Source of the DNA: Patiria pectinifera
Taxonomy: Eukaryota > Echinodermata > Asteroidea > Valvatida > Asterinidae
NCBI GenBank assembly: GCA_029964075.1
Contig: CM057135.1
Coordinates: 8,892,863 to 8,956,862 of the forward strand
Length of the DNA stretch: 64,000 nt
Reading direction: 5' to 3'
Shown: positions 2,566-46,181 of the stretch, piece by piece
How the letters are laid out: each line of letters starts with the position of its first letter
Position numbering within the stretch: position 1 is the first letter of the stretch
Made by a program: the position numbers and the translations under genes
The notes under the pieces: model-generated
What the model was told of the DNA's origin: nothing
Seen by the model: only the letters and a program-made list of their open reading frames with translations
The model's database searches: none

Positions 2566-2729
2566 GGCGTGGTGTGTATGCAGACAAAGAGTTTGCACGG
2601 AAAAGCCTCCTCCTGGAGTATCAGGGAGGACTCATATCCTATAAAGAAGCCTTGAAACGAGAGAAAAGCTACACCGCAGAGGATGGAAGTTTTCTATATT
2701 TTTTTCATGCATCGCTCTAATAAGAAATG
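2566..2729 (+). CDS. Exon: N-terminal half of a KMT5A-like SET domain
   Basis: Flanked by a tgcag acceptor and a gtaaaa donor. The frame beginning with RGVYADKEF continues LLLEYQGGLISYKEALKRE, matching the start of the SET domain of H4K20 methyltransferase KMT5A (GRGV...EY.G.LI...A.KRE), which binds the methyl donor and substrate. The KMT5A-style YFF segment follows. A run of seven T at 2699-2705 breaks the frame: downstream the register that fits the family (SNKK) is offset by one base. That register splices in phase into the next exon (TG + C gives Cys, then LDAT). The break is either a mutation or an assembly error. Exons upstream of the SET domain were not found. The family is clear; activity of this copy is doubtful. 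Confidence 0.75.
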
Positions 2730-3883
2730 GTAAAATGATACATTTCATTATTTGTTTGGTATACATATGTGAACATGTAGTCGTTGGGTTATATGAATGA
2801 AAACTATATAGCAAATGCTAGGAAGTTTCAGAAAAATAAAAGCATTTTCTTTGGAGTAAATATTCATATAAATACATATGAATATAAGGGGCCATTCAGA
2901 ATTTTCAATGTTTTAAAATTTCGACTTTTTTCCCAAATTATTTTGACCCACCCACCCACCCACCCACCCCTTATTTCAATTAATAACAAACTGAACATGG
3001 ACATGTACATGTACTTGCATGTACATGTACTTGAACACCATGTACATGTGTGTCTAGTTCAGTGACGGCGTGAAGTTGTCGGTCTTCCTCTTTTATGTGA
3101 TAAAATATATGTGATACCTCACCAACAAGTATCTTTTAACGAAATTCAATCAGAGTATTTATCAATTTTTAAAAAAAATGTTTAGTTGTTGTGTTACTTG
3201 TTGGTGTCCCTGCCACACTGTTCGATGGTGTAGCCGTGTGTGAATAGAGTCTGGTGACTGTACATAGACATTTTTTTGAATAAAAGTTGAATCGTTCATT
3301 CATGTGCACTTGTTATGCAATGCAGGGGCAGTGGTTCAAGGATATCTATGTCGACATGCAAAAAGTGTTCAAGAACGCGACTTGAATGCTTTTATGTGTT
3401 CACAATACAAAGACGCTGTTTAGATATTTCACAGTGTGACACAGTGAGAAATTTTGGAATCATAATGGCGTCAGCGATACTTGCTGGGGAGCTCTTTCGT
3501 ACGACTTTCTGTACTTTGGTACTGTTGTTTCCAGGACAATATTGTTCGTACGGTAAACCGACGTACCCAGATTTTTAAAGACGAAATTGCCGACCTCAAA
3601 CTTGTTAGTGCCATATTTGGCAACTATATGTGCGTTATTACTTTAATTAAACAAATGAACAGGTTAATTAAACATAGTACCATTGAAGGTACCTAAAAGT
3701 AAACATAATAGCACAGAAGACCGACAGACGAACATAAAATGTTCAAAAATAAACATATTTGTCTGGATAATTTTTTAGGGCGTTACCGGCAAGTTAACAC
3801 AAACTTGGTGTCAAATAGATCATGGGAATTACTTTTCTTTGACTTTTCATACAAGTTTACATAAACTTTAACTGTATGACCTG
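2730..3883. other. Intron with simple repeats
   Basis: No exon recognised. Holds an (accc)n tract at about 2944-2970 and an alternating acatgtac-rich tract at about 2998-3050. The block 3560-3620 (aaattgccgacctcaaactt) is shared with 15555-15580, marking an interspersed repeat. Confidence 0.5.
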
Positions 3884-4046
3884 CAGTGGCGTAGCCACGG
3901 GGGGGGGGGGGGGGCGACCCCCCCATAAAATCTTGTCGCCCCCCCAGTCGCCTCCCCCACTGAGATTTCATTGATCTACATGACGCCCCCCCCCCCATGA
4001 AATGTTCCAGCGCCCCCCCCCTGAAAAATTCCTGGCTACGCCACTG
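3884..4046. mobile_element. MITE with CAGTGGCGTAGCCA termini
   Basis: 163 bp, starting CAGTGGCGTAGCCA and ending TGGCTACGCCACTG, an exact 14-bp inverted repeat. The interior has several long G or C runs. The termini resemble widespread hAT-type MITEs. No clear 8-bp target duplication is visible. Confidence 0.75.
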
Positions 4047-4522
4047 ACAGTTCTATCTTTCTTTTTTTCTTCTTTTTTTTCTTTTTTTCCATGCAAAGTG
4101 AATTTCGATTTTAAATTATTCAGCTTGACCCACCCACCCACAATTTGGAAAAAAGATCGAAATTTTAAAACATTGAAAATTCTGAATGGCCTCTAAGTTT
4201 TCTTTACCCGTCCAGCATTTAACTAAACATCAGGTAGCAAGTGTTTCTTATTGTTTGATTGATTGCATGGACGAATGGTAGTCACAGCATTGTTTGTACT
4301 TGAATTTTTCAGGAAGACCTCCAATACGTTTTGTACATGATTGCCAAATTTGGGACCTTCGGGAATTGGGGACCCTATTTTCCTCTATTATTCAATGTCC
4401 CCTATTGAAGTGTTGAACATTTAGTTTGTGTGTGTAGGTGCACCATATGATCTTGCACAACCGCAGTGCAGGTTTAATCATAATGTTCATATATAATGCC
4501 TCAATTAATATAATTTTAATAG

Positions 4523-4718
4523 CTTGGATGCGACACACTCTACTGGCTGTGGCAGAATGGTTAATGATGCAGTTAACCCACGAGCTAATTGCAAAATGCG
4601 GATTGTTGACAACTGCAAAGATGGCAAGCCTCATTTGTGCCCGTTTGCTACTAAAGACATTGCTGTTGATGACGAGCTCAGGTTTGACTACGGAGTCTCC
4701 GACCTGCCATGGAGAAAG
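4523..4718 (+). CDS. Exon: C-terminal half of a KMT5A-like SET domain
   Basis: Acceptor taatag and donor gtatat bound 196 bp. The encoded segment starts with Leu-Asp-Ala-Thr after a Cys completed across the splice, then GRMVND (family: GRL(I/V)N), NCKM, a hydrophobic GKPHLCPFATKDIAV stretch and DELRFDYG (family: GEEL.YDYG). These are the C-terminal SET motifs that form the AdoMet pocket and active-site Tyr. It ends PWRK, as in the multi-copy KMT5A-like proteins of fishes and invertebrates that I recall. The frame is intact and leaves phase 0. With the exon at 2566 it makes a complete SET domain, predicted to methylate lysine on histone or another substrate. Substrate specificity is inferred only. 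Confidence 0.8.
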
Positions 4719-5863
4719 GTATATTTACACAATTTTTTGAAGTACCGATATATATATATGCACAATAAAAGCAGGCTATAAGTGTATAAGGTATACTGTA
4801 CAGTGCTTGAAGAAAAGGAGTTGAATTTTAAAGGAGAGGCCACATGCAATTGACTAGTCTGGTATGAAGCATTTTTTTTTTTGTATATAAATACAAAAAC
4901 AATACAATGTTTCTTAAAAAAAATTGCTGGACAAAAAGTTGGACTGATTTTTTAAATGATGTTCAAGGTCAAATGTGATGTATGAATTTCAAACAATACT
5001 AGAGATTATGGATGTGAACAACCACAGAGCTGTCCCAATATTGGACAGTACAAAATGATTTTCCACAAAAAAAGTAACTATTGAAATTGAAATTATAACC
5101 TTCAATAATTGCACTCATTGTTGTCATAACATGACAACAATAAACAGCACAGTAATAATGATGCAATATAATCATCTGTCAACATAGCTTCATATTAATG
5201 TGATGTTTCATCCAAATCAGATGAATATTTCATGAGACATGATATAAGGGTCTAAAATTAACACTTCCAGTAAAACCAAAAGTGAGGGTCATATGACCTT
5301 GACGCAGTTTTCATCTGTAACACTTCACTATATACATACCAAGTTTGAGATCAATCCGTCCATCAGTACTATAGTTATAAAACTGTACAAAAAAAAAAAA
5401 TTAATTGATGTCATGTAAGTTACCCTAGATGAAGTCAAGATGACGAAAAGTTACGGCATACATCTTCAGATGATGGTTAAAGGGAATATACAACATTTGC
5501 AGACATCAAAAAACAAAACTACCAAATTATCACCCAATACCTCACCGACGTTTAGTGAATGACAGTCTAAAACATCCTGTAAAATCTGTGTAAAATCTAT
5601 TTTGCTTGATTTGATTTTCCTAGCATCTAAGTGTAACTATATTTGCTATAAAATACTAACACCCCCAAATCCATCCATTTTTAAAAATTACAGCTTAAAC
5701 AAATGTTGTATGTTCCATTTAATGACTTTGTAAAGTTTAAAGTTGATCAGATTTAAAATAATTCCCAAAGTGGCTTGTAGAATCTAAAAAGTATACAAAG
5801 TCTTTGGGAAAAGTGAAAAAAAAATCTGAAGAAAAATAATCATTCTATCAATTTTCTTTTCAG
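4719..5863. other. Intron with palindromic repeat debris
   Basis: No exon recognised. Contains hairpins at about 5031-5050 (CTGTCC...GGACAG) and 5119-5141 (TTGTTGTCAT...ATGACAACAA). At about 5265-5400 a stretch (ggtcatatgaccttg..., accaagtttgagatcaat) resembles one diverged core unit of the Helentron-like repeat at 25.1-26.0 kb. Confidence 0.4.
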
Positions 5864-5930: not shown

Positions 5931-6084
5931 GTATGTCATTAGTTTCCAGTTGGCCTGAGCACTTTATCCTTTACTAGGTTTTATTTTTGTAAACACTTTC
6001 CTTTGACAAATTAACAAGGAATTCATGCCCTTATAGCTTTAAAGTATTTATTCACTCCACATTTGTTATACAGTATTTGCTATT

Positions 6085-7455: not shown

Positions 7456-8553
7456 TCAGTTGCGTTTCGCAGGATCTGTATTTGCGGAAACCACAATGAA
7501 TGATGTGCTCGCACAGTTTGCAGAGTACAGATATTGGTAGTTGGCGGCATCAGAGCGACTTCCCTTTTTGAAAAATGGGACTACTTGCGCTATCTTCCAT
7601 TGTGATGGTACCCTCCCTTGGTCGATTGAAGCCTGAAAAAGTAACGGTGCTGCAGGAGCAAACTCCACAGCCGTCTGTTTTAGCAGCATGGTAGGTATCC
7701 CATCTGGTCCAGAGGCAGTGAAGGGCTTGAGATTTTTCAGGAGTTTAATCACTCCATTCTCGCTCACAGTGATGTTTTCCATTTCAGGATAATTGCTGGT
7801 GCCTAGGTCAGGTAGTGGAGCTCCGTTGTCAGTTGAGAAAACCGATGTGAATTGCCGGTTCAGAATGTTGGCTTTGGCCTTGGGATCTGTGTGTAGAAAG
7901 CCTCCTTCTTTCACAGGTGCAACACCCATAAGATCACATCGCTTGGCTTTCACGAGAGCACCCAACTTCTTGCTCCTACAACCTGCTGGTACGCTGTGGA
8001 TGATGTCATGGACATACGTATTGTAGGAATTTCGGCAGATTTTTTTAGCCTCATTCTTTAAACGCTTGAAGCGAATCCAGTCTCTGGTTTTGTTTGTGCG
8101 ACGAGCCTTTTTGAAGGCACGACCCTTTTGTCTCGGGATGTGTTTTGATTTAGAGTTGAACCACGGTTGATTGACTCTTGTGGAGCTAAGCTTAGATAGA
8201 ACACAGTCGTTGATGATATCTTCAAGCTCCAGTTGCAGGGCAGTAGCAAGGTCTTCAACTGGCGTTGAAGTAGTGAGCTTTGAAATGAAATCATCTGACA
8301 TCTGATGGACTCTCGAGCCGATGGTGACAAGGTCGGCCCTTTTCCAGAGCAGAATCTTGCGCCGAACTGGTTTCCTCCTATAGGCACGGGCGTTCGCGTC
8401 CATGAATACCATGTCATGGTCGCTTAAGGCTGGGAGACCCGAGCATCTGTTAGTGAGGGAGGGTCTGTTGGTCAAGATGATGTCCAGAGTGTTGTCCCCT
8501 CTGGTAGGAAAATTGACCATTTGCTCAAGGCCAGCTGTATCAAGCAGGTTCAA
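7456..8553 (-). CDS. LINE endonuclease end and RT fingers (copy-1 frame)
   Basis: 365 codons. Starts inside the endonuclease C-terminus (NFPTRGDNTLDIILTNRP, SDHDMVFM). A basic linker follows, then the start of RT: ENGVIKLLKNL, ASGPDGIPTMLLK and IAQVVPFFKKG, the conserved fingers of CR1/jockey-type RTs. Soon after ANYQ, where such RTs read NYRPISL, the frame loses homology, so a small deletion lies here. The duplicated block supplies most of this frame. Confidence 0.75.
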   Translation of the reverse strand: MNLLDTAGLEQMVNFPTRGDNTLDIILTNRPSLTNRCSGLPALSDHDMVFMDANARAYRRKPVRRKILLWKRADLVTIGSRVHQMSDDFISKLTTSTPVEDLATALQLELEDIINDCVLSKLSSTRVNQPWFNSKSKHIPRQKGRAFKKARRTNKTRDWIRFKRLKNEAKKICRNSYNTYVHDIIHSVPAGCRSKKLGALVKAKRCDLMGVAPVKEGGFLHTDPKAKANILNRQFTSVFSTDNGAPLPDLGTSNYPEMENITVSENGVIKLLKNLKPFTASGPDGIPTMLLKQTAVEFAPAAPLLFQASIDQGRVPSQWKIAQVVPFFKKGSRSDAANYQYLYSANCASTSFIVVSANTDPAKRN

Positions 8554-8754
8554 GAAGGAATCATATATAGCCAGTGAGTATTGATGGGAAGCGACACTGT
8601 AGGTTTCCCAGGTGATATCTGGTAGGTTTATATCACCAGCAATCCACCTGCTACACCTGGGTTACTTTGACAAAGATGACTGATGGCGCTAATGAGATCC
8701 TCCATATACTTGAGGTCATTTTTGGGAGGTCTATACACAGATGCTAGTACAATG
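7810..8754. repeat. Tandem duplication in the LINE, copy 1
   Basis: Repeats at an offset of 948 bp as 8758-9702, with a 3-base TGT filler at 8755-8757. I saw no mismatch between the copies, and both carry the same frameshift near the endonuclease motif. The unit covers the end of the endonuclease and the start of the RT region. Such identity means a very recent event or an assembly duplication. Confidence 0.9.
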
Positions 8755-8757
8755 TGT

Positions 8758-9702
8758 AGGTAGTGGAGCTCCGTTGTCAGTTGAGAAAACCGATGTGAAT
8801 TGCCGGTTCAGAATGTTGGCTTTGGCCTTGGGATCTGTGTGTAGAAAGCCTCCTTCTTTCACAGGTGCAACACCCATAAGATCACATCGCTTGGCTTTCA
8901 CGAGAGCACCCAACTTCTTGCTCCTACAACCTGCTGGTACGCTGTGGATGATGTCATGGACATACGTATTGTAGGAATTTCGGCAGATTTTTTTAGCCTC
9001 ATTCTTTAAACGCTTGAAGCGAATCCAGTCTCTGGTTTTGTTTGTGCGACGAGCCTTTTTGAAGGCACGACCCTTTTGTCTCGGGATGTGTTTTGATTTA
9101 GAGTTGAACCACGGTTGATTGACTCTTGTGGAGCTAAGCTTAGATAGAACACAGTCGTTGATGATATCTTCAAGCTCCAGTTGCAGGGCAGTAGCAAGGT
9201 CTTCAACTGGCGTTGAAGTAGTGAGCTTTGAAATGAAATCATCTGACATCTGATGGACTCTCGAGCCGATGGTGACAAGGTCGGCCCTTTTCCAGAGCAG
9301 AATCTTGCGCCGAACTGGTTTCCTCCTATAGGCACGGGCGTTCGCGTCCATGAATACCATGTCATGGTCGCTTAAGGCTGGGAGACCCGAGCATCTGTTA
9401 GTGAGGGAGGGTCTGTTGGTCAAGATGATGTCCAGAGTGTTGTCCCCTCTGGTAGGAAAATTGACCATTTGCTCAAGGCCAGCTGTATCAAGCAGGTTCA
9501 AGAAGGAATCATATATAGCCAGTGAGTATTGATGGGAAGCGACACTGTAGGTTTCCCAGGTGATATCTGGTAGGTTTATATCACCAGCAATCCACCTGCT
9601 ACACCTGGGTTACTTTGACAAAGATGACTGATGGCGCTAATGAGATCCTCCATATACTTGAGGTCATTTTTGGGAGGTCTATACACAGATGCTAGTACAA
9701 TG
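8758..9702. repeat. Tandem duplication in the LINE, copy 2
   Basis: Second copy of the 945-bp unit. It joins the intact upstream LINE sequence at about 9703. The minus-strand frame in it encodes LLDTAGLEQMVNFPTRGDN and the post-endonuclease linker, identical to that of copy 1. Confidence 0.9.
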
Positions 9703-10442
9703 GTCTGGTTGTCGTTGATGATCTTCGCAGCGACAATCTCTGCATCTGACTTGATGGTAATCAGGTGGCTATTAAGGCTGTTGTGGACGCCAAGAAGTAC
9801 ACCTCCGTAACCGTCCCTACGATCACAACGATAAATGTCATATCCAGGTGGGAAAACTTCTCCATTGGCGATGTTTGGTTTCAGCCATGTTTCGCACCCA
9901 AAAACAACATCTGGCTTGGTAGCATCAAGAACACTCCAGAATTCTGCACGCTTTGGAAAAATGCTCTGGAAGTTCACTTCAAGTAGGCGGAGATTCTTGA
10001 GAGTTTGGTTGCTATTTCTGTTGTTTGGTGATGAATTGGCGAGAGGAGAACCTGGACGGTGAGAACTGGTGGAACTCGTTGAAGAGTGGGTCTCAGAATT
10101 TGAAGCGCTGTAATTGGACTCATCTATTATTGTTGAGTCAAAAAGCCCAGATGAAAAGTTGGGTAAACCACAACGATAACACTCCCAGGGGAGATCACTG
10201 CGCACAAGGGTATCGAGGGCAGAGTCTGTTAGGCCCACGCGGTCTGAATGAAACCACACGTCACATGATTCGCACAGGATGCTGGCTTTAGCACCTTTAT
10301 AGCTGGTGCAGGCCCTGGTACACTCTCCGCAGGGATACGTAGGTGTGTGGGGGCCAGGGTTGCGTTCAATATCACCAGCAAGCAGAAGTTGCTGATTTAG
10401 GTAGCAAAATGCTAAGTTCACAAAAATAACAATATAAATCAT
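9576..10442 (-). CDS. LINE N-terminal ORF: 2A-like signal, PHD-like zinc finger, endonuclease
   Basis: 288 codons. Residues 1-20 are a hydrophobic segment (MIYIVIFVNLAFCYL), followed at about 23-31 by GDIERNPGP, which fits the D-x-E-x-NPGP 2A ribosome-skipping consensus. Some LINEs carry 2A at exactly this N-terminal place, where it can double as a signal sequence. Residues about 37-92 have C..C...C..C....H...W.C..C spacing (CESCDVWFH, WECYRC), a PHD-like finger. A Ser-rich linker follows, then an APE-type endonuclease from about residue 150 (CETWL, YRCDRRDGYGGV, ASVYRPP). The frame is cut after LLVI by a one-base loss. The endonuclease continues in another register (AGDINLPDITW) across 9590. 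Confidence 0.8.
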   Translation of the reverse strand: MIYIVIFVNLAFCYLNQQLLLAGDIERNPGPHTPTYPCGECTRACTSYKGAKASILCESCDVWFHSDRVGLTDSALDTLVRSDLPWECYRCGLPNFSSGLFDSTIIDESNYSASNSETHSSTSSTSSHRPGSPLANSSPNNRNSNQTLKNLRLLEVNFQSIFPKRAEFWSVLDATKPDVVFGCETWLKPNIANGEVFPPGYDIYRCDRRDGYGGVLLGVHNSLNSHLITIKSDAEIVAAKIINDNQTIVLASVYRPPKNDLKYMEDLISAISHLCQSNPGVAGGLLVI

Positions 10443-12252: not shown

Positions 12253-12346
12253 GAAAGTGATACTGGAGAAGAGCTCAGTGACCATGTTTCAGACAGCTGT
12301 GGAGAAGAAAGTGACGTCAGTGAAGAGTTGCTCATTGGATCTCAAG
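12253..12346 (+). CDS. Acidic linker exon, copy 1
   Basis: 94 bp between a tatag acceptor and a gtatgt donor. Phase 0 entry gives ESDTGEELSDHVSDSCGEES then DVSEELLIGSQ, strongly acidic. The near-identical exon at 39740-39833 keeps this frame open, while the alternative frame acquires a stop there, so this frame is the coding one. It leaves phase 1, which fits the next exon at 13481. Function: a flexible acidic linker between the SET domain and the repeat region. Confidence 0.65.
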
Positions 12347-13480: not shown

Positions 13481-13840
13481 CTCGACCAATGCAGGAGACT
13501 GACTACACTGATTGCGGAAGGGAGACGGACAGCACTAATAGTGACAGAGGGCGTAAAGAGCACACTAGTGACGGAAGACGGAAAGAACACACTGGTGACG
13601 GAGGGCGTAAAGAACACACTGGCGACGGAGGATGGAAAGAGCACACTGGTGACAGAGGTTGGAAAGAACACACTGGTGACAGAGGGTGGAAAGAGCACAC
13701 TGGTGACAGAGGGTGGAAAGAGCACACTGGTGACAGAGGGTGGAAAGAGCACACTGGTGACAGAGGGTGGAAAAAGCACACTGGTGACAGATGGCAGACA
13801 TCAGAAGACGAGGATATCAGTGATTGCACAGATGCAACAG
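13481..13840 (+). CDS. Repeat exon, copy 1 (9-residue KEHTGDRGW repeats)
   Basis: Acceptor ttatgcag, donor gtgcgt. Entered in phase 1 from the preceding exon, it reads ARPMQETDYTDCGRETD. About nine 9-residue repeats follow (consensus (R/W)KEHTGD(R/G)G, 27 bp each), then an acidic tail (WQTSEDEDISDCTDAT). The frame stays open throughout and leaves phase 1. Because the unit is 27 bp, several other frames on both strands are also open; they are shadows. The repeat is charged and His/Thr-rich and predicted to be disordered. The longer homologue lies at 40303-41916. Confidence 0.7.
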
Positions 13841-14235: not shown

Positions 14236-14279
14236 AATCCTCCTCACCGGACATGACATCAGAATTTGAAAGTGAAGAG
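14236..14279 (+). CDS. Candidate acidic micro-exon
   Basis: 44 bp between a ttattccag acceptor and gttagt. Phase 1 entry from the repeat exon gives ESSSPDMTSEFESEE, in keeping with the acidic linker style. It leaves phase 0. No copy is visible after the second repeat exon. Short, so support rests on splice signals, phase and composition. Confidence 0.5.
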
Positions 14280-22648: not shown

Positions 22649-22835
22649 CAGTCGAATCTCTTTAGTACAAACTCTGTTAATACAAAATTCAGGTTATAAC
22701 AAACATAAAGCCTTAGTCCCGACTGTGCATTTATGTGCACAATGAATGGGACTGATGTTCCTCTTAATACAAAATTCTGATATAACAAACAATTTGGCTA
22801 GGTCCGAACGAGTTTGTATTAACGAGACTCGACTG
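22649..22835. mobile_element. pogo/Tigger-like MITE, copy 1, TA target
   Basis: 187 bp. Starts CAGTCGAATCTCTTTAGTAC and ends GTATTAACGAGACTCGACTG, imperfect inverted repeats of about 27 bp, flanked by TA on each side. The interior repeats ttaatacaaaattc-type words. It resembles 60215-60390. Inserted in the Penelope endonuclease. Confidence 0.85.
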
Positions 22836-23296: not shown

Positions 23297-23339
23297 GTTG
23301 TTCCTCAGTATCTGTGTATGGCGGGAGAAATCGGAATCA

Positions 23340-28641: not shown

Positions 28642-29255
28642 TGTAACGGAGACCCCTTTTTAAGGGCCACGCCCGCCAGTTAATAACACAAACTCAAGAA
28701 AATAATTCAACCAAACACAAACAATTTTTGGTCTCTGGGAAAAAGTACTAAAAAAATGAACGCTTTAATTTCTGAACTCTTGAATAAAGGTGAGATTGAC
28801 CAGGCTAGGTCCCCATGGCACTCGACCACATAGGGATTACATGTACGCAAAAGAAAACAAAAATTCAAACTTACAAGATTAAATAGAACTGCTGACGGAC
28901 GGCGGTAAATTATACAACATAATAAGGCAGGCTACATCATCAAGCTTCACAGTAGCAAATTATACAAACTATAGAAAATAAAGGACCGCCGCCCGCCGAG
29001 CTGCAGAGATGTGTCCCCAGCCAGTGTTCAGTTGAAATGCCTCCCCCAGTGCTAGTCGCACGGGCCTTATATACCCTTCGAGCAGACAATCAGTGGAATG
29101 TAAAAAATCCATTGTACCTATTATACTTAACATCAATAGGCATGGCCCAGCGCCCCAAAAAGGAATGTGCCATCACAATGAACATACCAACAGCTGGGCA
29201 CATTACTTAAAACTCTGTCTTTATAGCCCAGCACCCAGAGACCTTTTTTGTTACA
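28642..29255 (-). repeat. Ty3/gypsy 3' LTR
   Basis: 614 bp. Minus strand begins TGTAACAAAAAAGG and ends GTTACA. A TATATAAGG box lies at about 29067-29075. Nearly identical to 34709-35323; a one-base A-run length difference and a C/A substitution (atgaacgc vs atgaacac) are visible. Confidence 0.95.
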
Positions 29256-29270
29256 TTACCCTCCCCACTG
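29256..29270 (-). promoter_or_regulatory. Polypurine tract of the Ty3 element
   Basis: Minus strand cagtggggagggtaa directly before the 3' LTR. It is purine-rich and correctly placed for plus-strand DNA priming. Confidence 0.8.
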
Positions 29271-29541
29271 AAGAAGGCGTGTCCTCGCGCCTTAATGTTA
29301 CTATAAATACGTATAATAATATGCACATAAATGGCAGTTTCCTTGCAGAAGTTTGCATAAAAAACTATGAATTGATCCAATACTGAAAGTGTAAGAGATC
29401 ACATAGTGATAAATTACTGTTCGAAAAGCAGGTGATGAATTGTAATCGCAAAGCTTGGTGAAATGCAATTCTAGTGTCCGCATTGGTCTGCAGCCCAATA
29501 GGCACAGTTAAATATTGACAATTTCATCGCCAAGGAACAGT

Positions 29542-32500
29542 TCATATCACGTAGTTTCCAGTCTGCATCCAGGCAGGAGGTTTACGCTGGCGACATGGAC
29601 GACATGGCCGGCCGGTCCAATCATCCATGTTGTTCAGTTGTTCCTGTTCTAGATCTTCGTGAGTAATCTCTGTAGATCCATCTGCTTGCTGTGCTCTGAC
29701 TTCCGAGTCGGAGAACGTTCCACTCCCATCGCTTGGGCCTTGGCCTTCTGGCGCTGGACTCCTGTCCACCTCAGGCTCTGTCCCGTTAGATGCACCTTGA
29801 GGAGTCCCATCTCTCTCAGAAAAGTCAAAGTGTCCAGATGCAGTACTCCCTTCCCTCTCTGGTGTGGCCATGATGTCTTCATATCCTGCAGTCGAAAGCT
29901 GCTCAGAAGAACTTGAATGACAAGGCTTAAGTCTATCAAAATGAACAATGATTCGGTAACCAGTTTTCACATTTTTGATTCTATACACAGCATCAGAAAT
30001 ACGTTTAACAATTTCATACGGTCCTGTCCAGTATGACTGTAATTTAGGGCTCAAGCCAACTTTTCTCAAAGGCCTATACAGCCAAACCCTGTCTCCTGCA
30101 TTATATGGATTTCCTTTCAGTTTTGCATCATACAAACGTTTTCGACGTTTCTGTTCACCTTTGATATGTTCTCGAGCCATCTCAAAAGCTTTTTGCATAC
30201 GGTTGTACACTTCAGAAGCATACGTCTCTGAATTTGAATACTCATTTTCAGTACGGGGGTTTGCAACCATGAGATCCAAAGGCAACATAATTTCTCTACC
30301 GAACATCATTCTGTTGGGGCTAACACCGGTTGTTTCCTGTTCACTAGCCCTATAACTCATCATGACATAAGGTATATGTGTATCCCAATCGGTATGATCT
30401 TCACAAACATACATGCTAAGCATAGTTTGGATGGTTCTATTAAATCTTTCGACTAGACCGTCTGACTGTGGATGATAAGCTGTAGTTCTTGTTTTGTTAA
30501 TATCCAACAATTTACATACACTTTGAAACAAACCACTCTCAAAGTTTGAACCTTGATCTGTATGAAGGTTTAGGGGGACACCATACCGACAAATAAATTG
30601 CTCTACAAGTACCTGGGCTACAGTCTCCGCCTCTTGATTTCTCAGAGGGTATGCTTCGGCCCATTTGGTAAAATAATCCATCACCACAAGTATATACCGA
30701 TTGCCTTTTTTTGTACGTGGCAATGGGCCAAGAATATCTAAGGCAATCCTTTCAAATGGGGCTCCCACAAGTGACTGCTGAAGTGCACTGTGCAACTTTG
30801 GGGCCGGCATTTTTCTCTTGGCACAACTTTGGCATTGTTTAATCCAGCTGGCTACATCATTTCGGTAACCAATCCAATAAAAGGACCGCTGAACTTTACT
30901 GAAAGTTTTAGTTCGGCCTAAATGGGCCCCTGATCTGACATTATGTGCTGCATACAAAACCTTCTTTCGCAAAGATCTAGGCACAATAACTTGCAAGAAT
31001 GACGACAATTTGTTCTCAAATCGCCTATACAGAATACCTTCTTTCAACTCGAGTTGATCCCAAAGGTACCAATAACCTTTTGTCTCTCGGCTGTGACCTG
31101 CGATCGAGCTGCCAGGTGGCCTCTCCACACAACTCTTTTTCCACTGGATGATTGGAGCCAACGCTTCATCTTTCTGCTGGGCCTCCTGTAGCTCGACCAG
31201 GTCCCAACCTGCAAAGACAGTGCTTACAGAAAAACTGGTAAGTTTCACATGGTTGATTGCATTTTCTGGAAACTTATCAAAAGGCATTCTGGAGAGTGAA
31301 TCTGCGTTTTTGTGTTGGCTACCTGGTCTGTAACTAATTTCATAGTCAAAAGCACTCAAAATTTCAATCCACCTGGCCAACTGTCCTTGTGCATCTTTAA
31401 AATTACACAGCCACCGTAACGAACCATGGTCAGTGCGTATTTTGAATTTCCTTCCATACAAATAATGTCTGTAATATTTCACAAAGTGGACAACTGCTAG
31501 CAACTCTTTCTTAGTCACACTATAATTTTTTTCGCTTTTTGACAGCTTACGACTACTGTAACCAATCACTCTTTCTTGCCCTTCTTGAATCTGAGAAAGA
31601 ACTCCACCAATACCTTGGTCACTAGCATCTGTATCTAATATGAATGGTTCCGAGAAATCTGGAAACGTTAGGACACTTGCTGAAGTGAGGTGGTTCTTTA
31701 ATTCACGAAATGCATTGTCGCATTCGGCAGTCCAATTAAATCGGACATCTTTGTGTGTTAACTTGTGAAGTGGGGCTGCAATATGAGCAAAGTTTTTCAC
31801 AAAGCGTCTATAATAGGAACATAGACCTAGAAAGCTACGAACTTCTTTGAGATCACATGGCGTTGGCCAGTCTAGTATTTTGTGAATTTTATCGGGATCT
31901 GTTGACACTCCATCACTGGACACCACATGTCCCAAGTACAAAACTTGCTTCTGGTACAAATGACACTTTTTGGGCTTTAATTAAAGCCCTGCTGAGGACA
32001 GTCTGTTAAAAAATTCACTCAGCCGAGATGAATGTTCTTCGAAAGATGGAGCAAAAATCAAAATGTCATCAATGTATACTAAACAGGTCTGCCAATGTAA
32101 TCCTGCTAATACACGTTCCATTAATCTCTCAAATGTACTAGGGGCATTACAGAGCCCAAAAGGCATTACATTAAATTCATAAAGGCCAGTCCCTGTAGTG
32201 AAAGCTGTTTTACTCTTATCTTGGGGGTTAACTTCTACTTGCCAGTAACCGCTGGCCAGGTCTAAAGACGAAAACCACTGTGAACCAGACAGAGCGTCAA
32301 GGCTATCATCAATGCGAGGAAGAGGATAAGAATCCTTGTATGTTACCTCATTCAATTTTCTATAATCAACACAAAACCTAGCAGATCCGTCCTTTTTCTT
32401 AACTAGTACAACGGGACTTGCCCATGGACTATTGGATGGAGAAATTACGCCCTTATGTAATATATCATCAACCTGTTTTTGTGCTTCAGCTCTCTGATGA

Positions 32501-33417
32501 TGAGGTAAACGACGAGCAGGTTGTCGCTTAGGGTGAGCATCTCCAGTTTCTATGTCATGATACACTACATTGCTACGACCAAGCTCACCTGATTTTGAAA
32601 ACACATTTTGATTGCTGCTCAACATATCTCTCAATTTACCTTTTTGTTCGTGAGTTAACTCTTTAGAGCATCGCTCATACATTTCTTGTAATTCAGAATC
32701 TATCTCAGGTTTGACACAATCAGTTTGTTCACCACTGTCTATTTCAGTTACTGGATGGAGGACAGCCACATGAGTGTCTTTGTAAATAGTTGATGGTTCA
32801 CTTTTCAAGTTCAACAACCGAATTGGCACATGATTATTTTTACCGACATAAGAGAACGTTCGACCTATCAACATATTGTTGTCTTTAGCCACAAAACGTC
32901 CGGTTGGCTCCATCAACCCTTGCTTTATGCCTATTTTTCTGACATGCAATTGTCCCGGTATTATGACTTCTTGTCCTTGCGGAATTGTTATCGTCTCTGC
33001 TACCGAAACTCTACAACAACCGTCAGTTACAACATTCTCCAAAGATATAGAAACTTCATATGTCCCAAATCTTAGCTTTTTCTTAGGTAAATCTAAGACT
33101 CCTCCGTTACACGAAAGAAAATCCAGACCTAAGATACCAGCCTGAGTAATAGGGGCAACATAAATCGAGTGGCGCCTAACCAATTTACCAACTTTGATCA
33201 CTATCTCAGCACATCCTACTACATCTAAGGCTGTACCTTCGGCAGCTATGATCGACTTAGTACATACATGCAGTGTCTGCCTTATGTTTTGAGGCAGTAA
33301 CTCCCACATTTGCGGGTGTAAAATAGTTACCGAAGATCCTGTGTCAACCAAAAACTTAACATGTACGCCATGAACGCTACCATTAACAAAGATGGTACTC
33401 TGGGCCTGACCGTTCAC
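29542..33417 (-). CDS. pol: Ty3/gypsy pol: protease, RT, RNase H, integrase
   Basis: Starts one base inside the gag stop in the -1 register (GTG start), so it is probably expressed by -1 frameshifting. Protease FLVDTGSSVTIL at about residue 25. RT: FCVDYRKLNEVT, FSSLDLASGYWQ, LCNAPSTFERLM and the catalytic YIDDILIF. A TAA at 31981-31983 then interrupts; the same register continues. RNase H: LDTDASDQGIGGVLSQ and RTDHGSLRWL. Integrase: HHCC zinc site (H..H..C..C near CQSCAKRK), then DILGPLPRTKKGN, HTDQGSNFES and the Glu in HPQSDGLVERFNRT. GPY/F module: YWTGPYEIVKR. There is no chromodomain; a hydrophilic acidic tail ends near 29542. Apart from the stop the enzyme motifs are intact. Confidence 0.95.
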
Positions 33418-34580
33418 TAATTCTGGCTGGGCACCGACCCCATGCTCAGCCGAACCGAGTTTTCCTGTGGTGTTGTGAAACCATTTTCACCCTGCACTAT
33501 TTCTGACTGTTTATTTGGACACTGAAAATGCCTATGCCCTTCCTGTTTGCAATTCCAACAAATTAAAGGTCGTTTAGGTTTGCTAGCCTTACTCTGCTTA
33601 AAGGCCAACTGAAACTCCTTCACTGTCTGTTCTAACTGTTCAATCTTGTGTTTAAGCTCACTGTAATCCTGACTATTGGATGTCGGTAATTCGGCAGTCT
33701 TGCTTTGACAGGCATTGGCACCCATCCTCTGAAGAAAATTTGCTTTGTTGTACTTAACCTGGAAAAAGGCCTCTTCTTCTAAAGCTACTGTAAGAGCAGC
33801 CCCTAAGTCCTTTGGTTTGGTTCTACGAACCTGCATTCTAACATCAGGAGAGTCTAATGCCTCAATAAAATAATCTCTACCCAGCTCTTCTCGCAAAACA
33901 GCAGATAAATCCGGGTATGCCTTAGATACAAGTCTACGAATATCACTAGCTAACTCAGGTAAAGCTTCACCCTTTTTACGTGACCGTACCTTAAGTTGGG
34001 CCCTAAACAAACCCGTTTGTCCTTGTGGCGAAAATCTCTCTTTCAATGCCTTGACAACATTCTCTAAGCACAATTTGCTGGTTTCCGGTAAGTCTGTATA
34101 AACCTGTAGGGCTGGGCCCCTTAACCTAACTGCGAGGAATTTAGTTTTTTGTTCCTCAGTCCAACCATTTATCTGACAACATAAATTCAAATTTGTTAGC
34201 CAATCCTCAAGGTTGGTCTTGCCATCATAATTGTCAGGTTCTACAACTGGTTTCTTTGGTTTTACAACAGACTGCAAGGCACTACCATTATCTTTATGTA
34301 CATTTTCTCTACAAATCCTATCACATGTATTTGACAGAGACTTTGGCAAATCATTGAATTCAGTATCAGGAGTACTATGTACAAAAGACCGAATGCCCGG
34401 GGTTTGTGTCTCAGCTCTGCCCATGGGGGAGGGCATCTGGCTGGGGACTTTAACTCCCATGGGCTGCGTCGACGCTAGCCGAGTCAATCTCTTACTTTCA
34501 GCTTCAATTGCTGCAATTTGTTCTTCTAATGTAGCTATGGTTTGGTCTAACTGACCAGTCAACTCTCTCCTGGAACTCAT
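33417..34580 (-). CDS. gag: Ty3/gypsy gag
   Basis: 387 codons from ATG. An N-terminal coiled-coil (ATLEEQIAAIEAESKRL, residues about 16-32) is followed by a linker, then a retrotransposon gag capsid-like region (NYDGKTNLEDWLTNL, FLAVRLRGPALQVY, LKERFSP) at about 115-230. A second coiled segment and one CCHC knuckle (CWNCKQEGHRHFQC, about 338-351) for RNA binding complete it. It ends TAG overlapping the pol start. Complete and without stops. Confidence 0.93.
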   Translation of the reverse strand: MSSRRELTGQLDQTIATLEEQIAAIEAESKRLTRLASTQPMGVKVPSQMPSPMGRAETQTPGIRSFVHSTPDTEFNDLPKSLSNTCDRICRENVHKDNGSALQSVVKPKKPVVEPDNYDGKTNLEDWLTNLNLCCQINGWTEEQKTKFLAVRLRGPALQVYTDLPETSKLCLENVVKALKERFSPQGQTGLFRAQLKVRSRKKGEALPELASDIRRLVSKAYPDLSAVLREELGRDYFIEALDSPDVRMQVRRTKPKDLGAALTVALEEEAFFQVKYNKANFLQRMGANACQSKTAELPTSNSQDYSELKHKIEQLEQTVKEFQLAFKQSKASKPKRPLICWNCKQEGHRHFQCPNKQSEIVQGENGFTTPQENSVRLSMGSVPSQN

Positions 34581-34586
34581 CTTGGT

Positions 34587-34622
<36 letters not shown>

Positions 34623-34680
34623 GGAGAGACAAAAGCAAAGGATCAAGAATAAAAAAATGTAATTTAAATGGTGGGCAAAA

Positions 34681-34703
34681 TTTCGATCCCACCGCTGCCA
34701 CCA
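34681..34703 (-). promoter_or_regulatory. Primer binding site for tRNA-Leu
   Basis: The plus strand at this place reads like the 3' end of a tRNA (ATCCCACCGCTGCCACCA), matching eukaryotic tRNA-Leu of the AAG/UAG type, including CCA. Its minus-strand complement, TGGTGGCAGCGGTGGGAT, lies 5 nt after the 5' LTR, the expected place for minus-strand priming. Confidence 0.85.
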
Positions 34704-34708
34704 AAAAC

Positions 34709-35323
34709 TGTAACGGAGACCCCTTTTTAGGGGCCACGCCCGCCAGTTAATAACACAAACTCAAGAAAATAATTCAACCAAACACAAACAATTTTTGGTC
34801 TCTGGGAAAAAGTACTAAAAAAAATGAACACTTTAATTTCTGAACTCTTGAATAAAGGTGAGATTGACCAGGCTAGGTCCCCATGGCACTCGACCACATA
34901 GGGATTACATGTACGCAAAAGAAAACAAAAATTCAAACTTACAAGATTAAATAGAACTGCTGACGGACGGCGGTAAATTATACAACATAATAAGGCAGGC
35001 TACATCATCAAGCTTCACAGTAGCAAATTATACAAACTATAGAAAATAAAGGACCGCCGCCCGCCGAGCTGCAGAGATGTGTCCCCAGCCAGTGTTCAGT
35101 TGAAATGCCTCCCCCAGTGCTAGTCGCACGGGCCTTATATACCCTTCGAGCAGACAATCAGTGGAATGTAAAAAATCCATTGTACCTATTATACTTAACA
35201 TCAATAGGCATGGCCCAGCGCCCCAAAAAGGAATGTGCCATCACAATGAACATACCAACAGCTGGGCACATTACTTAAAACTCTGTCTTTATAGCCCAGC
35301 ACCCAGAGACCTTTTTTGTTACA
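34709..35323 (-). repeat. Ty3/gypsy 5' LTR
   Basis: 615 bp, promoter LTR for the element. TATATAAGG box near 35133-35141 on the minus strand. Followed on the right by the target duplication ATAG and LINE B sequence. Confidence 0.95.
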
Positions 35324-37017: not shown

Positions 37018-37955
37018 GCGTTAGGATGGAAGACCTGGAGGTGCTTAAATCACCTCCGCTCTGGAGTGGCTGGCACCAAAAGCACCAAGAAGAAGTGGGG
37101 ATTTTCCTCAACCGACAAACACCCTGTGTGGGTGCGGTACTGCAGAAGACACTTTAAAACATTTCATATTTAGATGCAAGGCACTAAAGGGTTGGTCATA
37201 TTTTGGCCCTAAAAGGGGGACAGATTTTCCCCCTTTCAACTTTTTCCGCAATACTCTTGAAAAATTATTGATTTCGCGGCCTGAGCTGTCCTGACTTTTT
37301 AGCCTCGAGTCTTGCACATCTTTTGATACCAAAAACATAAAATTCGAACCACAGGTTGCCGCGCAGCGAAATATTTTCGGCGCTACCCTCCGTCAAAACT
37401 GAATTTCCCCAAATACGTAGTGTACACATTTGAATTACCACGTGCTTATGAATAATTAATTAGCCGTAATTCCAAAACCCTTTGACCCATAGTCATGAAA
37501 TTTCTTGGGTTTGTTCATGTTAAGTTGTTCTATGCATGTACCGAGTTTCATAATTTTTCGTCACTCGATGGCCGAGGTCATGGGGGGGGGGCCGGAATCT
37601 GCGTGAGATGGTCAAAACAACCCGGCCCTTTTCGGGCAAAAGTGACATTTTCCCATGTTTTCTTCAGCAAAACCCATAAATACATTAATAATAACATTTA
37701 TTATAATGGAGAAACTCTCAACCAAATACAATATGTGCTCACTTGCCTCGAAAATCTTCGTAAACCCTTCCGAAAGGCAAATTTTAGGTGAAAATGACCC
37801 ATGAACTTTGACCTCAGGTCAAGGTCACTAAAGGTCAATGGAAAAAATGGCAACATCAATTTTCTTGTTCTCAGGACTCATAAGATTACATTTATAATGG
37901 TTGCCATAAATTAACATGACATGCCAACGGAAGTACATTGGCCCCCCACTACATC
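37018..37955 (+). mobile_element. Jockey-like LINE 3' end, inverted relative to LINE B
   Basis: Plus strand: GWKTWRCLNHLRSGVAGTKS, WVRYCRRHFKTF, then a 3' UTR ending near ggccccccacta. It is the reverse complement of 27590-28507 with scattered differences. It begins exactly where the minus-strand LINE B endonuclease stops, so two LINE pieces meet head to head. Coding is broken by a stop after the C-terminal motif. Confidence 0.75.
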
Positions 37956-39739: not shown

Positions 39740-39833
39740 GAAAGTGATACTCGAGCAGAGCTCAGTGACCATGTTTCAGAAAGCTGTAGAGAAAAAAGTG
39801 ACGTCAGTGAAGAGTTGCTGATTGGAACTCAAG
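39740..39833 (+). CDS. Acidic linker exon, copy 2
   Basis: 94 bp, the same splice sites as 12253-12346 and about 90% identical to it. Phase 0 gives ESDTRAELSDHVSESCREKS then DVSEELLIGTQ. The alternative frame has TGA, so the acidic frame is the conserved one. It leaves phase 1 into the long repeat exon at 40303. This is part of a block duplicated from 12.2-13.9 kb. Confidence 0.65.
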
Positions 39834-39867
39834 GTATGTCTGCAGAGGCTGCACACTAGGACATGTC

Positions 39868-40302: not shown

Positions 40303-41916
40303 GGTGGACAAAGCACACTGGTGACAGAGGGTGGAAAGAACACACTGGTGACAGAGGTTGGAAAGAACACACTGGCGACGGAAGGCAGAGAGAGCACTCT
40401 GGTGACGGAGGGCGGAAAGAACACACTGGTGACGGAGGGCGGAAAGAACACACTGGTGACGGAGGGTGGAATAAGCACACTGGTGACAGAGGGTGGAAAG
40501 AACACACTGGCGACGGAAGGCCGAAAGAGCACACTGGTGACGGAGGGCGGAAAGAACACACTTGTGACGGAGGGTGGAATAAGCACACCGGTGACAGAGG
40601 GCGGAAAGAACACACGGGTGACAGAGGGCGGAAAGAACACACTGGTGACGGAGGGTGGAAAGAACACACTGGTGACGGAAGGTGGAATAAGCACACTGGT
40701 GACAGAGGGCGGAAAGAACACACTGGTGACGGAGGGCGGAAAGAACACACTGGTGACGGAGGGTGGAATAAGCACACTGGTGACAGAGGGTGGAAAGAAC
40801 ACACTGGCGACGGAAGGCCGAAAGAGCACACTGGTGACGGAGGGCGGAAAGAACACACTTGTGACGGAGGGTGGAATAAGCACACCGGTGACAGAGGGCG
40901 GAAAGAACACACGGGTGACAGAGGGCGGAAAGAACACACTGGTGACGGAGGGTGGAAAGAACACACTGGTGACGGAAGGTGGAATAAGCACACTGGTGAC
41001 AGAGGGCGGAAAGAACACACTGATGACGGAGGGTGGAATAAGCACACTGGTGACAGAGGGTGGAGGAAAGAACACACTGGTGACGGAAGGCCGAAAGAGC
41101 ACACTGGTGACGGAGGGCGGAAAGAACACACTGGTGACGAGGGTGGAATAAGCACACTGGTGACAGAGGGCGGAAAGAACACACGGGTGACAGAGGGCGG
41201 AAAGAATACACTGGTGACGGAGGGCGGAAAGAACACACTGGTGACGGAGGGTGGAATAAGCACACTGGTGACAGAGGGCGGAAAGAACACACTGGTGACA
41301 GAGGGCGGAAAGAACACGCGGGTGACAGAGGGCGGAAAGAACACACTGGTGACGGAGGGCGGAAAGAACACACTGGTGACGGAGGGCGGAAAGAGCACAC
41401 TACACTGGTGACGAAGGGTGGAAAGAACACAATGGTGACGGAAGGCAAAAACAGCACACTGGTGAAGGAAGGCAGAAAGAGCACACTGGTGACGGAGGGT
41501 GGAAAGAACACACTGGTGACGGAGGGCGGAAAGAACACACTAGTGACGGAGGGCAGAAAAAGCACACTGATGACAGAGGGCGGAAAGAACACACGGGTGA
41601 CAGAGGGCGGAAAGAACACACTGTCGACGGAAGGCAGAAAGAGCACACTGGTGACGGAGGGTGGAAAGAACACACTGGCAACGGAAGACAGAAAGAGCAC
41701 ACTGGTGACGAAGGGTGGAAAGAGCACAATGGTGACGGAAGGCAGAAAGAGCACACTACACTGGTGACAGAGGGTGGAAAGAACATACTGGTGACAGAGG
41801 GCGGAAAGAACACACTCGTGATGGAGGGCGGAAAGAACACACGGGTGAAGAACACACTGGTGACAGATGGCAGACATCAGAAGACGAGGATATTAGTGAT
41901 TGCACAAATGCAACAG
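40303..41916 (+). CDS. Long repeat exon, copy 2 (27-bp VNTR)
   Basis: Acceptor ttcag, donor gtgcgt. About 57 units of 27 bp (consensus ggcggaaagaacacactggtgacggag) encode 9-residue repeats (R/W)KEHTGD(G/R)G in the frame entered from 39833. The tail again reads WQTSEDEDISDCTNAT and leaves phase 1, which joins the zinc-finger exon at 43061. Near 41139 one unit lacks a base, moving the frame to TEGGKNTLV-type text and then a TGA at 41409-41411. Two +5 changes (near 41400 and 41757) later return the register. The total length keeps phase (1614 bp). The array makes long open frames on both strands; only the acidic-tailed frame is supported. Copy number is probably variable. Confidence 0.7.
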
Positions 41917-43060: not shown

Positions 43061-44684
43061 CCCGCAAGACAAAACCATCAAGACCGTGCCCTTTTTGTGG
43101 GCTATTGCAGACCCGTTTAAACAGACATATGCAAGGCAAGCACAAAGATGAGGAGGCAATACGGCAAGCTCTGAGTCTACCACAAAAGGAACGGGAAAGA
43201 GTATTCAGAAGGCTACGGCTCCAGGGAATATACAATCACAATAAAGAGCTCATCAACAATGGAGACCCATGTCTGATGTCACAAAGATCACAGAAACCAG
43301 GTGCCAAGTTGGTCATCTGTGGCAACTGCAATGGTTTCTACAATAGACGGTTCTTTTGGAGCCACAGACAGCAGTGCAGTACAGATAGCATACTGTCTGC
43401 AACGCCGTTCCCTACACCACTACTTAAAACATATTGGAAGTTTGTGACAGATGAGTTTAAAGAAAACATTCTTTGCGGTTTTCAGGCAACCTGTGCAGGG
43501 ATGATCACGACATCTGTATGTTTGGGGGGGGGGGGGAGATTGTACGACAAGATGAGGCGGAAACAGGACAACAAATTTGAAGTCTGGAAGTCAGTCATGA
43601 CTGATATGAGACGAATCGGGACAGTGTATCACGAGTTTCGAGAGCTGAAGCCAGAATCTGCATCATCAGCAGAAATGTTCTGCAGAGCAAATTCTGATAC
43701 ACTTCAGGAAGCAATCAGCCAGGTCACACAACAAGACGAGAGTCCACAAGGTAGCAAATCAGGCATCAAGGCTGGCTTGAAACTTGCCATTTATTATCTT
43801 TTGAAAAAAATGGCAAAGGTGTTAAAAGGGTCCTATCTTGTCAGTGGTGATGATAAGAAAGCTGAAGATATCAATACATTTGTAGATGTGCTCACACTGA
43901 ATAAGGATTTCGTCTTCGGTGATGCAGTGTACGTGTTGAACAAATATAAGAACATCAGTCTGAGGAGGCCAGAACGACTCCCCCTAGAAAATGAGGTAAA
44001 ACAACTCAGGGATTTCACTGTGACACAGATTGAGAACATGCTAACAGAGGATTACATGTTCTGGTCACCACATGAATCTGTGATGCTACGAGATCTCACT
44101 GCATCAAGAATAACATTATTCAATGCCCGAAGGGGTGGGGAGCCAGCCAGACTGACCATCACAGAATGGGAGGAGGCCGCTAACGACTCATGGATCAACT
44201 CTGATTATATACAGCACTTGGATGAAACAGAAAAGAAGATGTTTGGTGAAATGAAGATCACTTTCCAGACCGGAAAAGGCAACAATCATTTAGTTCCCGT
44301 GCTGATTCCAACAGACTCGATCTAAGCAATGAAAAGGCTCTCGAATTCCAGGTTTAGAGGAATTGCGAATGTCCATCCTGCAAATTCTTACATTTTTCCC
44401 ATGTATCCAAGGCAGCCTTAATCACATGAGTGGATGGCACAGTATTCAACGTGTTTGTGCTGAAGCCAACGTCAGTGAGCCCGCTAAAATGACAGCCACT
44501 GCAATGCGCAACCGTGCAAGCACTCTCTATGCTGCAATGGAAGTCCCTGAACAAGAAAGAACCTTGTTCTACAAACACATGGGGCACACTGCACTAGTAA
44601 ATGCAAATGTGTACCAAGCTCCATTAGCAATAGAAGAAGTGAGGACAGTTGGGAAAAGGCTTCAACAAATGGATATAGGAAATT
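43061..44684 (+). CDS. Exon: zinc fingers plus Crypton-like tyrosine recombinase, with stop and shift
   Basis: Phase 1 entry gives ARKTKPSRPCPFCG. A first finger CPFC...H....H (43 bp in), a helical region (RQALSLPQKERERVFRRL) and a second Cys/His cluster (ICGNCNGFYNRRFFWSHRQQ) follow. The catalytic part begins near 44080: LFNARRGGEPARL fits the first Arg of tyrosine recombinases. After a TAA at 44323-44325 and a shift near 44395, another register gives MTATAMRNRASTLYA (second Arg box) and HMGHTALVNANVYQAP (His and nucleophilic Tyr). Such enzymes cut and join DNA through a Tyr-phosphate link. Here the Arg, Arg, His and Tyr residues are all visible but not in one frame. A donor gtaagt follows in phase with the exon at 46086. 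Similar proteins, often with SET domains, are known to me as multi-copy predictions in fishes and invertebrates. Confidence 0.78.
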
Positions 44685-44881
44685 GTAAGTATCATTATGA
44701 TTACTGCACCTCGTAATACTCATGAGATAGAGCCAAATTTTATCTCATTGATACACCATCACTTGCAATTTGCTAGCTTTGCTATAAAACCAAGCTTGCA
44801 TGTGAGGACTCACGCACAGGAAATTATATTCGCAAGTCGTGTATGCAGTAACCCTTGAAATCTACTTGTGCTTGCATAATT

Positions 44882-45345
44882 CGTCACCGTTTTCACGAAG
44901 GGACGGGTATGTGGATTTTGAAGAAAAAAATGTTTTTTGAGATAATTGCAAGAGAAGTTTCTCCGCTTTTAAAACTGCCAAAGCTACTAACTTTACAAAA
45001 ACTTTATGGAAAAAGGAAACCTGGACGTAATTCTTTGATAGGTAAACTTTAATTTGAACCCATGCAGTAATCATAATTAACACCGTGGTTATTAGCCAAA
45101 ATTAATTAGTAAAGATGCCTGCCCCTTCGTGAAAACGAAAATCCCACTTTTCCCCATGTACGCTTTTCTTGTTCAACGTGTTTTTCCATAGATAAGGGGC
45201 CCGCGTGACTACGCGCGCGCAGCTGAGAATGTAACAAAGATGCCCATCCCTTCTTGAAAATGAAAAACTCAGTTGAACGTGTTCACGGGGGTAGGCATGC
45301 TCGCGTCTCTTCGTGAAATCGCAAAATGCAATTATAATGCCTGCC
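44882..45345 (-). repeat. Palindrome-rich element with GCGCGC core, copy B
   Basis: Starts with the same gtcaccgttttcacgaa as copy A. Contains tacgcgcgcgcagctgagaa and gtaacaaagatgcccatccc, the inverse of the copy A core. Repeats cttcgtgaaaacgaaa-type words in both directions, as a foldback would. Non-coding. Confidence 0.5.
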
Positions 45346-46085
45346 CCTAATGATTAACATCATTAATGTTATTCAGAAATTAAGGATGTCATATGGATTC
45401 CTTTGGGGCCAGTTTTTATGTGCACCCTCTATGAGAGAACACGGCGAAAAATCATTAAGAACAGGCCTTTTTTCACATCTGTCGCCACCACTTCATTATT
45501 TGACATAGTATACCTTAGATCTCTTTCCGAAAATGAAAGAAAAACTGAATAAAACATTGAATTTCACTCGCAAATTGATATTAAACACTGCATTTTTAGT
45601 CAAAATTCTCCCTGTTTTGTGTGTAAATCACGCGTTTAGCCAAGAACTGGTCCATTATTACATCATCACAACGTTATAAAGCGCCACCTGGGAGCTTAGA
45701 TCTCTCGAGTCAATTTTCTTCGTTTCGTCAGCTTTCCAACAAAACTGTACTGGCAATTGCCCAAACATGGCCAGAGTACTGTGAGATATGATGGCTTTTG
45801 CACTTGGATTGCTGCAAGCTTTGGAACGCCTTTCAAACCTGCACAAAGAGCATCATGTGACAGAGTAAAATGAACAAAATTGTCAGATCTTTGTCTCCAA
45901 GGGAATGGATGTTACCAGTATTTGTGGAGTACATTTCACATTGGTTGCATGGGATGATTAATTAAGGCTGTTCATATATTCAGCAGTGCATGTACACAAC
46001 CATGGTCATTATTGTGGGTGTTGTTCTTTTCCCTTATACAGTAATTCATTGGATTTCAAACACATGTTCACTAAAAAATTTTCAG
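45346..46085. other. Intron, nothing recognised
   Basis: No coding exon or repeat structure clear enough to name. The last 70 bp are shared with 52526-52585. Confidence 0.5.
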
Positions 46086-46181
46086 CGCGAATGGAGGGTA
46101 CTGGTGACACAAGACGGAGCTCTAAGGAGGACACTAATGACAGCATCAGGGGGACAAAGGCTGACGTACATGTAACAACAG
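46086..46181 (+). CDS. Candidate hydrophilic exon after the recombinase
   Basis: Acceptor ttttcag and donor gtgtgt, 96 bp. Phase 1 from 44684 gives SRMEGTGDTRRSSKEDTNDS then IRGTKADVHVTT, charged and Ser/Thr-rich like the other linkers. It leaves phase 1. A broken copy exists at 52586-52948. No homology outside the window is claimed; it is supported by phase match, splice sites and duplication. Confidence 0.5.

Follow-up and report, generated by a model that had tools for sequence, protein, structure and literature searches.

A probable dead Crypton-type tyrosine-recombinase transposon with a KMT5A-like SET domain in the sea star Patiria pectinifera

Does a run of exons in the sea star Patiria pectinifera, in which a SET domain is followed on the same strand by acidic linkers, repeats and a tyrosine recombinase (YR), belong to one gene, and is that gene the host's or a mobile element's? 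The run lies in a stretch of 64,000 nucleotides, called the window here, which covers positions 8,892,863 to 8,956,862 of contig CM057135.1 in assembly GCA_029964075.1 (C7:8892863-8956862 in the contig labels used for this genome of 613.5 Mb). The window very probably holds a dead YR transposon of Crypton type with a single gene, encoding a KMT5A-like SET domain, a variable acidic and repeat linker, two zinc-finger-like modules and the YR. The exons of the window copy are the following.

2566..2729, plus strand: SET exon 1, N-terminal half of the KMT5A-like SET domain (PF00856 match; borders by eye)
4523..4718, plus strand: SET exon 2, C-terminal half of the SET domain (PF00856 match and KMT5A/SETD8 structure match; borders by eye)
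12253..12346, plus strand: acidic linker exon, copy 1 (splice borders by eye; duplicated at 39740-39833)
13481..13840, plus strand: exon of 27-bp (9-residue) repeats, copy 1 (9.3 repeat copies at 13541-13791; borders by eye)
14236..14279, plus strand: small acidic exon (splice-like borders, by eye only)
39740..39833, plus strand: acidic linker exon, copy 2 (placed by identity with copy 1)
40303..41916, plus strand: exon of 27-bp repeats, copy 2 (56.4 repeat copies at 40314-41848; borders by eye)
43061..44684, plus strand: zinc-finger and YR exon with an in-frame stop and frame changes (placed by homologues; borders by eye)

In a direct reading of the letters, GT follows 12346, 13840, 39833, 41916 and 44684, and AG precedes 13481, 14236, 40303 and 43061. 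A preliminary description of the window had placed the SET, acidic, repeat and zinc-finger/YR exons in succession on the plus strand; this order holds, and splice signals of GT/AG type are present at the positions just given, where it had put the borders. The last exon it proposed, 46086-46181, found no homology support, the sole test being a search with the C-terminal parts of relatives; the same parts were used to look in the window for a C-terminal exon of the type seen in the relative on contig C10, and none turned up.

By sequence similarity the SET domain is of KMT5A type, KMT5A being, as judged from exon 2, the closest among SET domains. The region of exon 2 (4509-4781) matches PF00856 positions 51-105 above the cut-off (E value 7.1e-6), and that of exon 1 (2547-2702) matches positions 1-36 with an E value of 0.0062 and 17.4 bits, which taken alone is below the cut-off of 22.4. 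Among solved structures, exon 2 is matched best by KMT5A/SETD8 (E value 2.8e-6), which fills the top 14 rows; for this exon H3K4 enzymes come next, at 0.0034. Exons 1 and 2 are 56% and 54% identical, respectively, to those of a relative on contig C4 (locus L053, exon 1 at L053:1009-1152). KMT5A acts on H4K20, and the active site of SET domains is marked by the motifs RGxG, NHS and YDYG. Exon 2 contains GRMVNDA and RFDYG. KMT5A/SETD8, though the closest solved SET domain, has no recombinase, and differs from the window and C4 copies in having NH where these read ND and YDYG where these read FDYG. Most relatives looked at have YDYG or a variant of it, and the related family A keeps both NHG and YDYG. 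The F in place of the first Y of YDYG presumably corresponds to SETD8 Y334F, a switch from mono- to dimethylase.

The YR exon has 203 homologues. Pfam gave no family above its own cut-off for the exon, and the YRs of relatives on C10 and C3 and of the 67%-identical relative P0001 are likewise not recognised directly. Among 48 aligned YR relatives, PF00589 matches four (best E value 5.1e-5) and the DUF3504 models none at an E value of 0.01; neither the profile search of solved structures nor PHROGs returned a YR match. In the window itself, the profiles that the preliminary description had asked for detect the SET domain (PF00856) but not the recombinase. The recombinase fold that it had proposed is borne out by another route. 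Read in two frames, the exon shares 66.5% and 81% identity with P0001, and a confident AlphaFold model of P0001 matches YRs including Cre and XerH in a fold comparison. The R/K/H/Y columns are conserved in the YR alignment, so that both the fold and the R-H-R-Y residues of a tyrosine recombinase are found. A tyrosine-recombinase fold is thus supported, through the model, as the predicted product of exons of the window type, of which the C4 relative has an open frame of 563 amino acids (aa).

That the two domains belong together is seen throughout the genome. Merging gave 73 clusters of YR matches and 95 of SET matches, the latter also covering ordinary host SET genes; both lists of matches are lower bounds. 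A SET match lies within 16 kb of 40 of the 73 YR clusters, in all 40 cases upstream and on the same strand; uniform placement would give about 0.1 such pairs. With the distance extended to 45 kb, SET is upstream on the same strand at 50 clusters, downstream on the same strand at 2, downstream on the opposite strand at 1, and absent at 20. In family C, the copies on C10 and C21 have open reading frames (ORFs) of 1117 and 1113 aa, spanning the second half of SET and the entire YR. In a third copy that was fetched (C21, minus strand) the ORF is interrupted into 559 and 570 aa. At locus L031 on C3 an ORF of 1310 aa leads from SET through repeats and an acidic stretch and ends in the N-terminal part of the YR. 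In the C4 relative both SET exons, an acidic repeat stretch (by eye) and the YR follow within 8.6 kb, in the exon order of the window. The better-preserved copies include those at C3:16739483-16757197, on C10 and on C4. The preliminary description had only inferred the SET-YR linkage across 44 kb; order, strand and single ORFs in these relatives establish it. In every family read (L029, L040, L053) SET and YR are linked by a minisatellite that stays in frame and varies in copy number from copy to copy; the repeat units of different families are unrelated, measuring 27 bp in the window and 21 bp in family A, with others in the C10 and C4 copies.

The YR clusters are unevenly distributed. Contig C7, 44.85 of the 613.5 Mb, holds 35 of the 73, mostly at 0.6-21 Mb and 42-43.4 Mb; one possible reason is a region poor in recombination. 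A tandem array of three clusters occupies C8:6553390-6585997; they share a strand, are spaced by about 10.5 kb, and the last has a SET match on its upstream side.

The fusion is also found in predicted proteins of other animals, echinoderms and fish. Among the 120 matches listed for the family C recombinase, 17 have a precomputed SET domain, of which 2 are unnamed and 15 named, the latter from sea urchin, sea stars, sea cucumbers and cichlid fish. A reverse search from the KMT5A-like SET domain gave 5 long proteins including the query, and 4 of them contain a YR (2 from sea cucumber, 1 from a crinoid, 1 from a catfish); the YR of the crinoid protein, P0242, is of the window's type. Across the 17 fused proteins the distances for SET and for YR are correlated (r 0.76, permutation p 1e-4, with two of the SETs partial, several proteins from one species, and a permutation that ignores shared descent), as expected if both domains travelled together.

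Evidence for mobility comes from copies and their ends. The element recurs many times in the genome, and identity between some copies at separate loci reaches 96-99%; for the family A copies on C3 and C20, the longest aligned pieces agree at 96-97%. Nine right ends of family A were compared (C3, C7a, C20, C12, C7b, C1, C166, C22, C20m) and eight left ends, from the same copies minus C20, whose left part is missing or replaced. The left inner end is TTTGTCTTTCATACTCATTGAGGAG, preceded by TG-rich DNA, and the right inner end is GGTATGCGGAACAAGTA, followed by TG-rich DNA, with the last T replaced by G in C20 and C20m (AAGTAGG). Outside the TG-rich DNA the flanks of different copies are unrelated. 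Since TG-rich DNA stands on both sides, an exact short direct repeat cannot be delimited. The C7b copy interrupts a 57-bp minisatellite, in which the neighbouring intact units display the empty target, GA(TG)nGATATT. The two ends of family A are weakly alike as inverted repeats, an equal score being reached at 176 of 20,000 random positions and in 81 of 20,000 shuffles; this resemblance to YR arms around a core is only suggestive. In the family nearest to the window, comparison of long stretches gives 98.5-99.4% identity between the C4 and C21 copies. Their shared DNA begins beside a long TA repeat (L073:1380-1860, L074:60-460) with unrelated flanks, as seen at the left border, and this family may use TA rather than TG repeats as its target.

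The YR is under purifying selection between recent copies. The ratio of changing to silent substitution rates (dN/dS) in the YR part is 0.20 for the recent pair of family C (7.0 silent and 5.0 changing differences; silent divergence, dS, 1.7%) and 0.26 for that of family A (6.8 and 6.2; dS 1.1%); the counts are small, dS is saturated in most other pairs of the window type, and the L010 and L015 pairs were excluded. A ratio of 1.6 over the whole family C ORF was set aside, the repeat linker being its source. In family A, SET exon 2 has one change between C3 and C20 and is uninformative on selection.

Taken together, the SET-YR fusion in relatives, the YR fold, and the ends and empty site of family A point to a Crypton-like mobile element, and the mobile Crypton-type system entertained in the preliminary description gains, in one related family, the ends of an element. 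Several observations weigh against this interpretation. Both ends were delimited in family A alone, not for the window copy nor for its nearest family, which gave a left border; even in family A the junctions at C22 depart from a clean TG repeat, and the two termini are weakly similar as inverted repeats. No clean ends emerged for family C, where the copies diverge on the left at another repeat and a minisatellite occupies the right side; the left flank that its two C21 copies have in common exceeds what they share with C10, as in a segmental duplication. No SET lies within 16 kb of 33 of the 73 YR clusters, the window's own (41 kb apart) among them. Of the 120 matches listed for the family C recombinase, 103 lack a precomputed SET, and two of these (P0121 and P0123) lack SET on rescanning too; a precomputed SET is also absent from all 120 proteins, of up to about 735 aa, listed for the window YR exon, while P0243 from Ruditapes has a SET without a YR. 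Finally, the duplicated exons of the window would also allow two copies in tandem.

A family of host genes, domesticated from a Crypton and spread by segmental duplication instead of transposition, could account for the extra left flank of the C21 copies, the purifying selection on the YR and the tandem clusters on C8. It is nevertheless improbable, as family A is found on seven contigs (C1, C3, C7, C12, C20, C22, C166) with the same inner ends and unrelated flanks, one of its copies sits inside a minisatellite whose units show the empty site, and copies are patchy and many are broken. Nothing was observed that points to domestication, the other option that the preliminary description had offered.

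The window copy itself is a dead copy of the YR transposon, split by nested transposons. It is considered dead on four grounds: a frame change where SET exon 1 nears its end (judged by eye from relatives), a short, probably mis-framed stretch at about 43485-43530 of the YR exon that matches relatives poorly, a stop codon in frame at about 44323, and a further frame change around 44390. The acidic exon is present twice (12204-12380 and 39696-39867, 88.8% identical), each time followed by a repeat exon, so that either part of the gene was duplicated within the element or two copies stand in tandem. Two nested elements separate the exons.

7456..10442, minus strand: nested ORFs like those of long interspersed nuclear elements (LINE-like), between SET exon 2 and the first acidic exon (type by eye)
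28642..35323, minus strand: nested gypsy-type long terminal repeat (LTR) retrotransposon, between the first and second acidic/repeat blocks (type by eye)

The LTRs of the gypsy element (28642-29255 and 34709-35323) are 99.5% identical, as in a young insertion, and its ORFs are on the minus strand. An inverted pair, 27632-28511 and 37023-37919, 93% identical, flanks this element on both sides. The LINE-like ORFs contain an exact tandem duplication of 945 bp (7810-8754 and 8758-9702). By eye, an ORF at 18504-19817 (plus strand) resembles a hAT transposase and one at 22694-24510 (minus strand) a Penelope-like reverse transcriptase. It is largely because of nested transposons that the gene spans 44 kb. 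The single split gene of the preliminary description is accordingly right as an architecture, SET, zinc fingers and YR being one protein in relatives, and wrong as a working gene, the window copy having decayed.

That the window copy is instead a working domesticated gene, its stop and frame changes being assembly errors, is very unlikely. Some of the frame changes do lie in or beside homopolymer runs, where assemblies err, but the in-frame stop lies outside any run, and neither the poorly matching stretch and the duplicated exons nor about 40 kb of nested transposons fit such a gene; moreover, this assembly has uninterrupted frames in the C4, C10 and C3 relatives.

Still less likely is an origin of the YR in a DIRS/Ngaro-type retrotransposon that acquired a SET domain. 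Such elements do use a YR, and DIRS elements can carry a (DNA) methyltransferase domain. The family A unit on C3, however, is 17,714 bp long and consists of one gene and tandem repeats, with a longest further non-repetitive frame, in the parts printed, of 137 aa; the ORF lists of families A and C, judged by length and not by reverse transcriptase profiles, contain no frame long enough for a reverse transcriptase/RNase H. Least plausible of all are two adjacent genes or nested transposons with SET and YR in order by chance, for although the two are 41 kb apart in the window with other transposons filling the gap, and relatives with YR only exist, order and strand agree in 40 of 40 pairs, single ORFs span both domains, and fused proteins are predicted in other animals.

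Among known systems, the nearest to the SET-YR transposon favoured here are the animal Cryptons (CryptonA) of sea urchin, acorn worm and medaka, which are described in the relevant sections of Kojima and Jurka (2011, PMC3212892) as having a YR, no C-terminal domain and no terminal repeats that could be found; for other Crypton groups these sections propose a circular intermediate and short direct repeats at the ends. Neither 'SET domain' nor 'methyltransferase' appears anywhere in the text of that paper. The present element is like CryptonA in its YR recombinase and its lack of long terminal repeats, and unlike it in the fused SET and in family A ends at TG-rich DNA. It would work like a Crypton, has the recombinase fold and, in family A, discrete ends, yet it is outside the described animal group, because the YR of that group stands alone, without an added catalytic domain such as SET. 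The distinction is drawn against the group as described and says nothing about how the element moves. Crypton-derived host proteins (DUF3504 / KIAA1958, ZMYM, QRICH1, KCTD1) similarly have YR-like domains in animals, but are host genes and, as described in the part of PMC3212892 that deals with them, have no SET. A SET domain is joined to a transposon enzyme in SETMAR as well (structure 3bo5). SETMAR, however, is a host gene derived from a mariner transposase; the partner here is a YR by fold, and SET-YR has many copies, those of family A being delimited by element ends.

HarbingerS and MuDR transposases belong to the DDE class. In Phytophthora, as reported in the sections of PMC12730594 on these elements, HarbingerS and MuDR transposons carry SET histone methyltransferase genes, so that a SET in a transposon is not new in principle. 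They resemble the present element in having a SET methyltransferase aboard a DNA transposon, but are from oomycetes, not animals, and have other classes of transposase. No description of a SET-YR fusion in animals, and no paper that pairs KMT5A with a tyrosine recombinase, was found in the open-access literature, Repbase not being searched.

How such an element would move can be outlined from knowledge of tyrosine recombinases. The zinc-finger/YR part would bind the element ends and the YR would excise the element as a circle; for re-insertion, a short TG core where the ends are joined would exchange strands with TG dinucleotides of the target. The covalently attached SET domain might methylate a lysine at the element or the target, in histone H4K20 by homology or in a non-histone protein, and this would most likely keep the element expressed or open the target. 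The methylation step is the least certain one, with the balance leaning against it. That the SET marks chromatin in connection with recombination appears a reasonable inference; its most economical role would be a local chromatin change favouring expression or insertion, self-methylation or another substrate being possible. The window copy would afterwards have received other transposons, a stop and frame changes, and come to hold its acidic and repeat exons in duplicate.

More broadly, and tentatively, YR transposons with an integrase that brings along its own histone lysine methyltransferase may form a superfamily found across animals. One polypeptide would then recognise the element ends, carry out strand exchange in dinucleotide microsatellites and place a KMT5A-type mark on chromatin of the element or its target, by which the element would avoid silencing or select its sites. 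As a rule, histone methylation is applied to transposons; in this case the enzyme that would move the element itself carries a SET of the writer type, which makes this a candidate case of a mobile element shaping its own chromatin. Animal YR elements gain a defined structure, with ends, target and domain order. The finding also suggests that some echinoderm and fish database proteins labelled KMT5A, SET domain-containing or uncharacterized are perhaps transposon products, not host genes.

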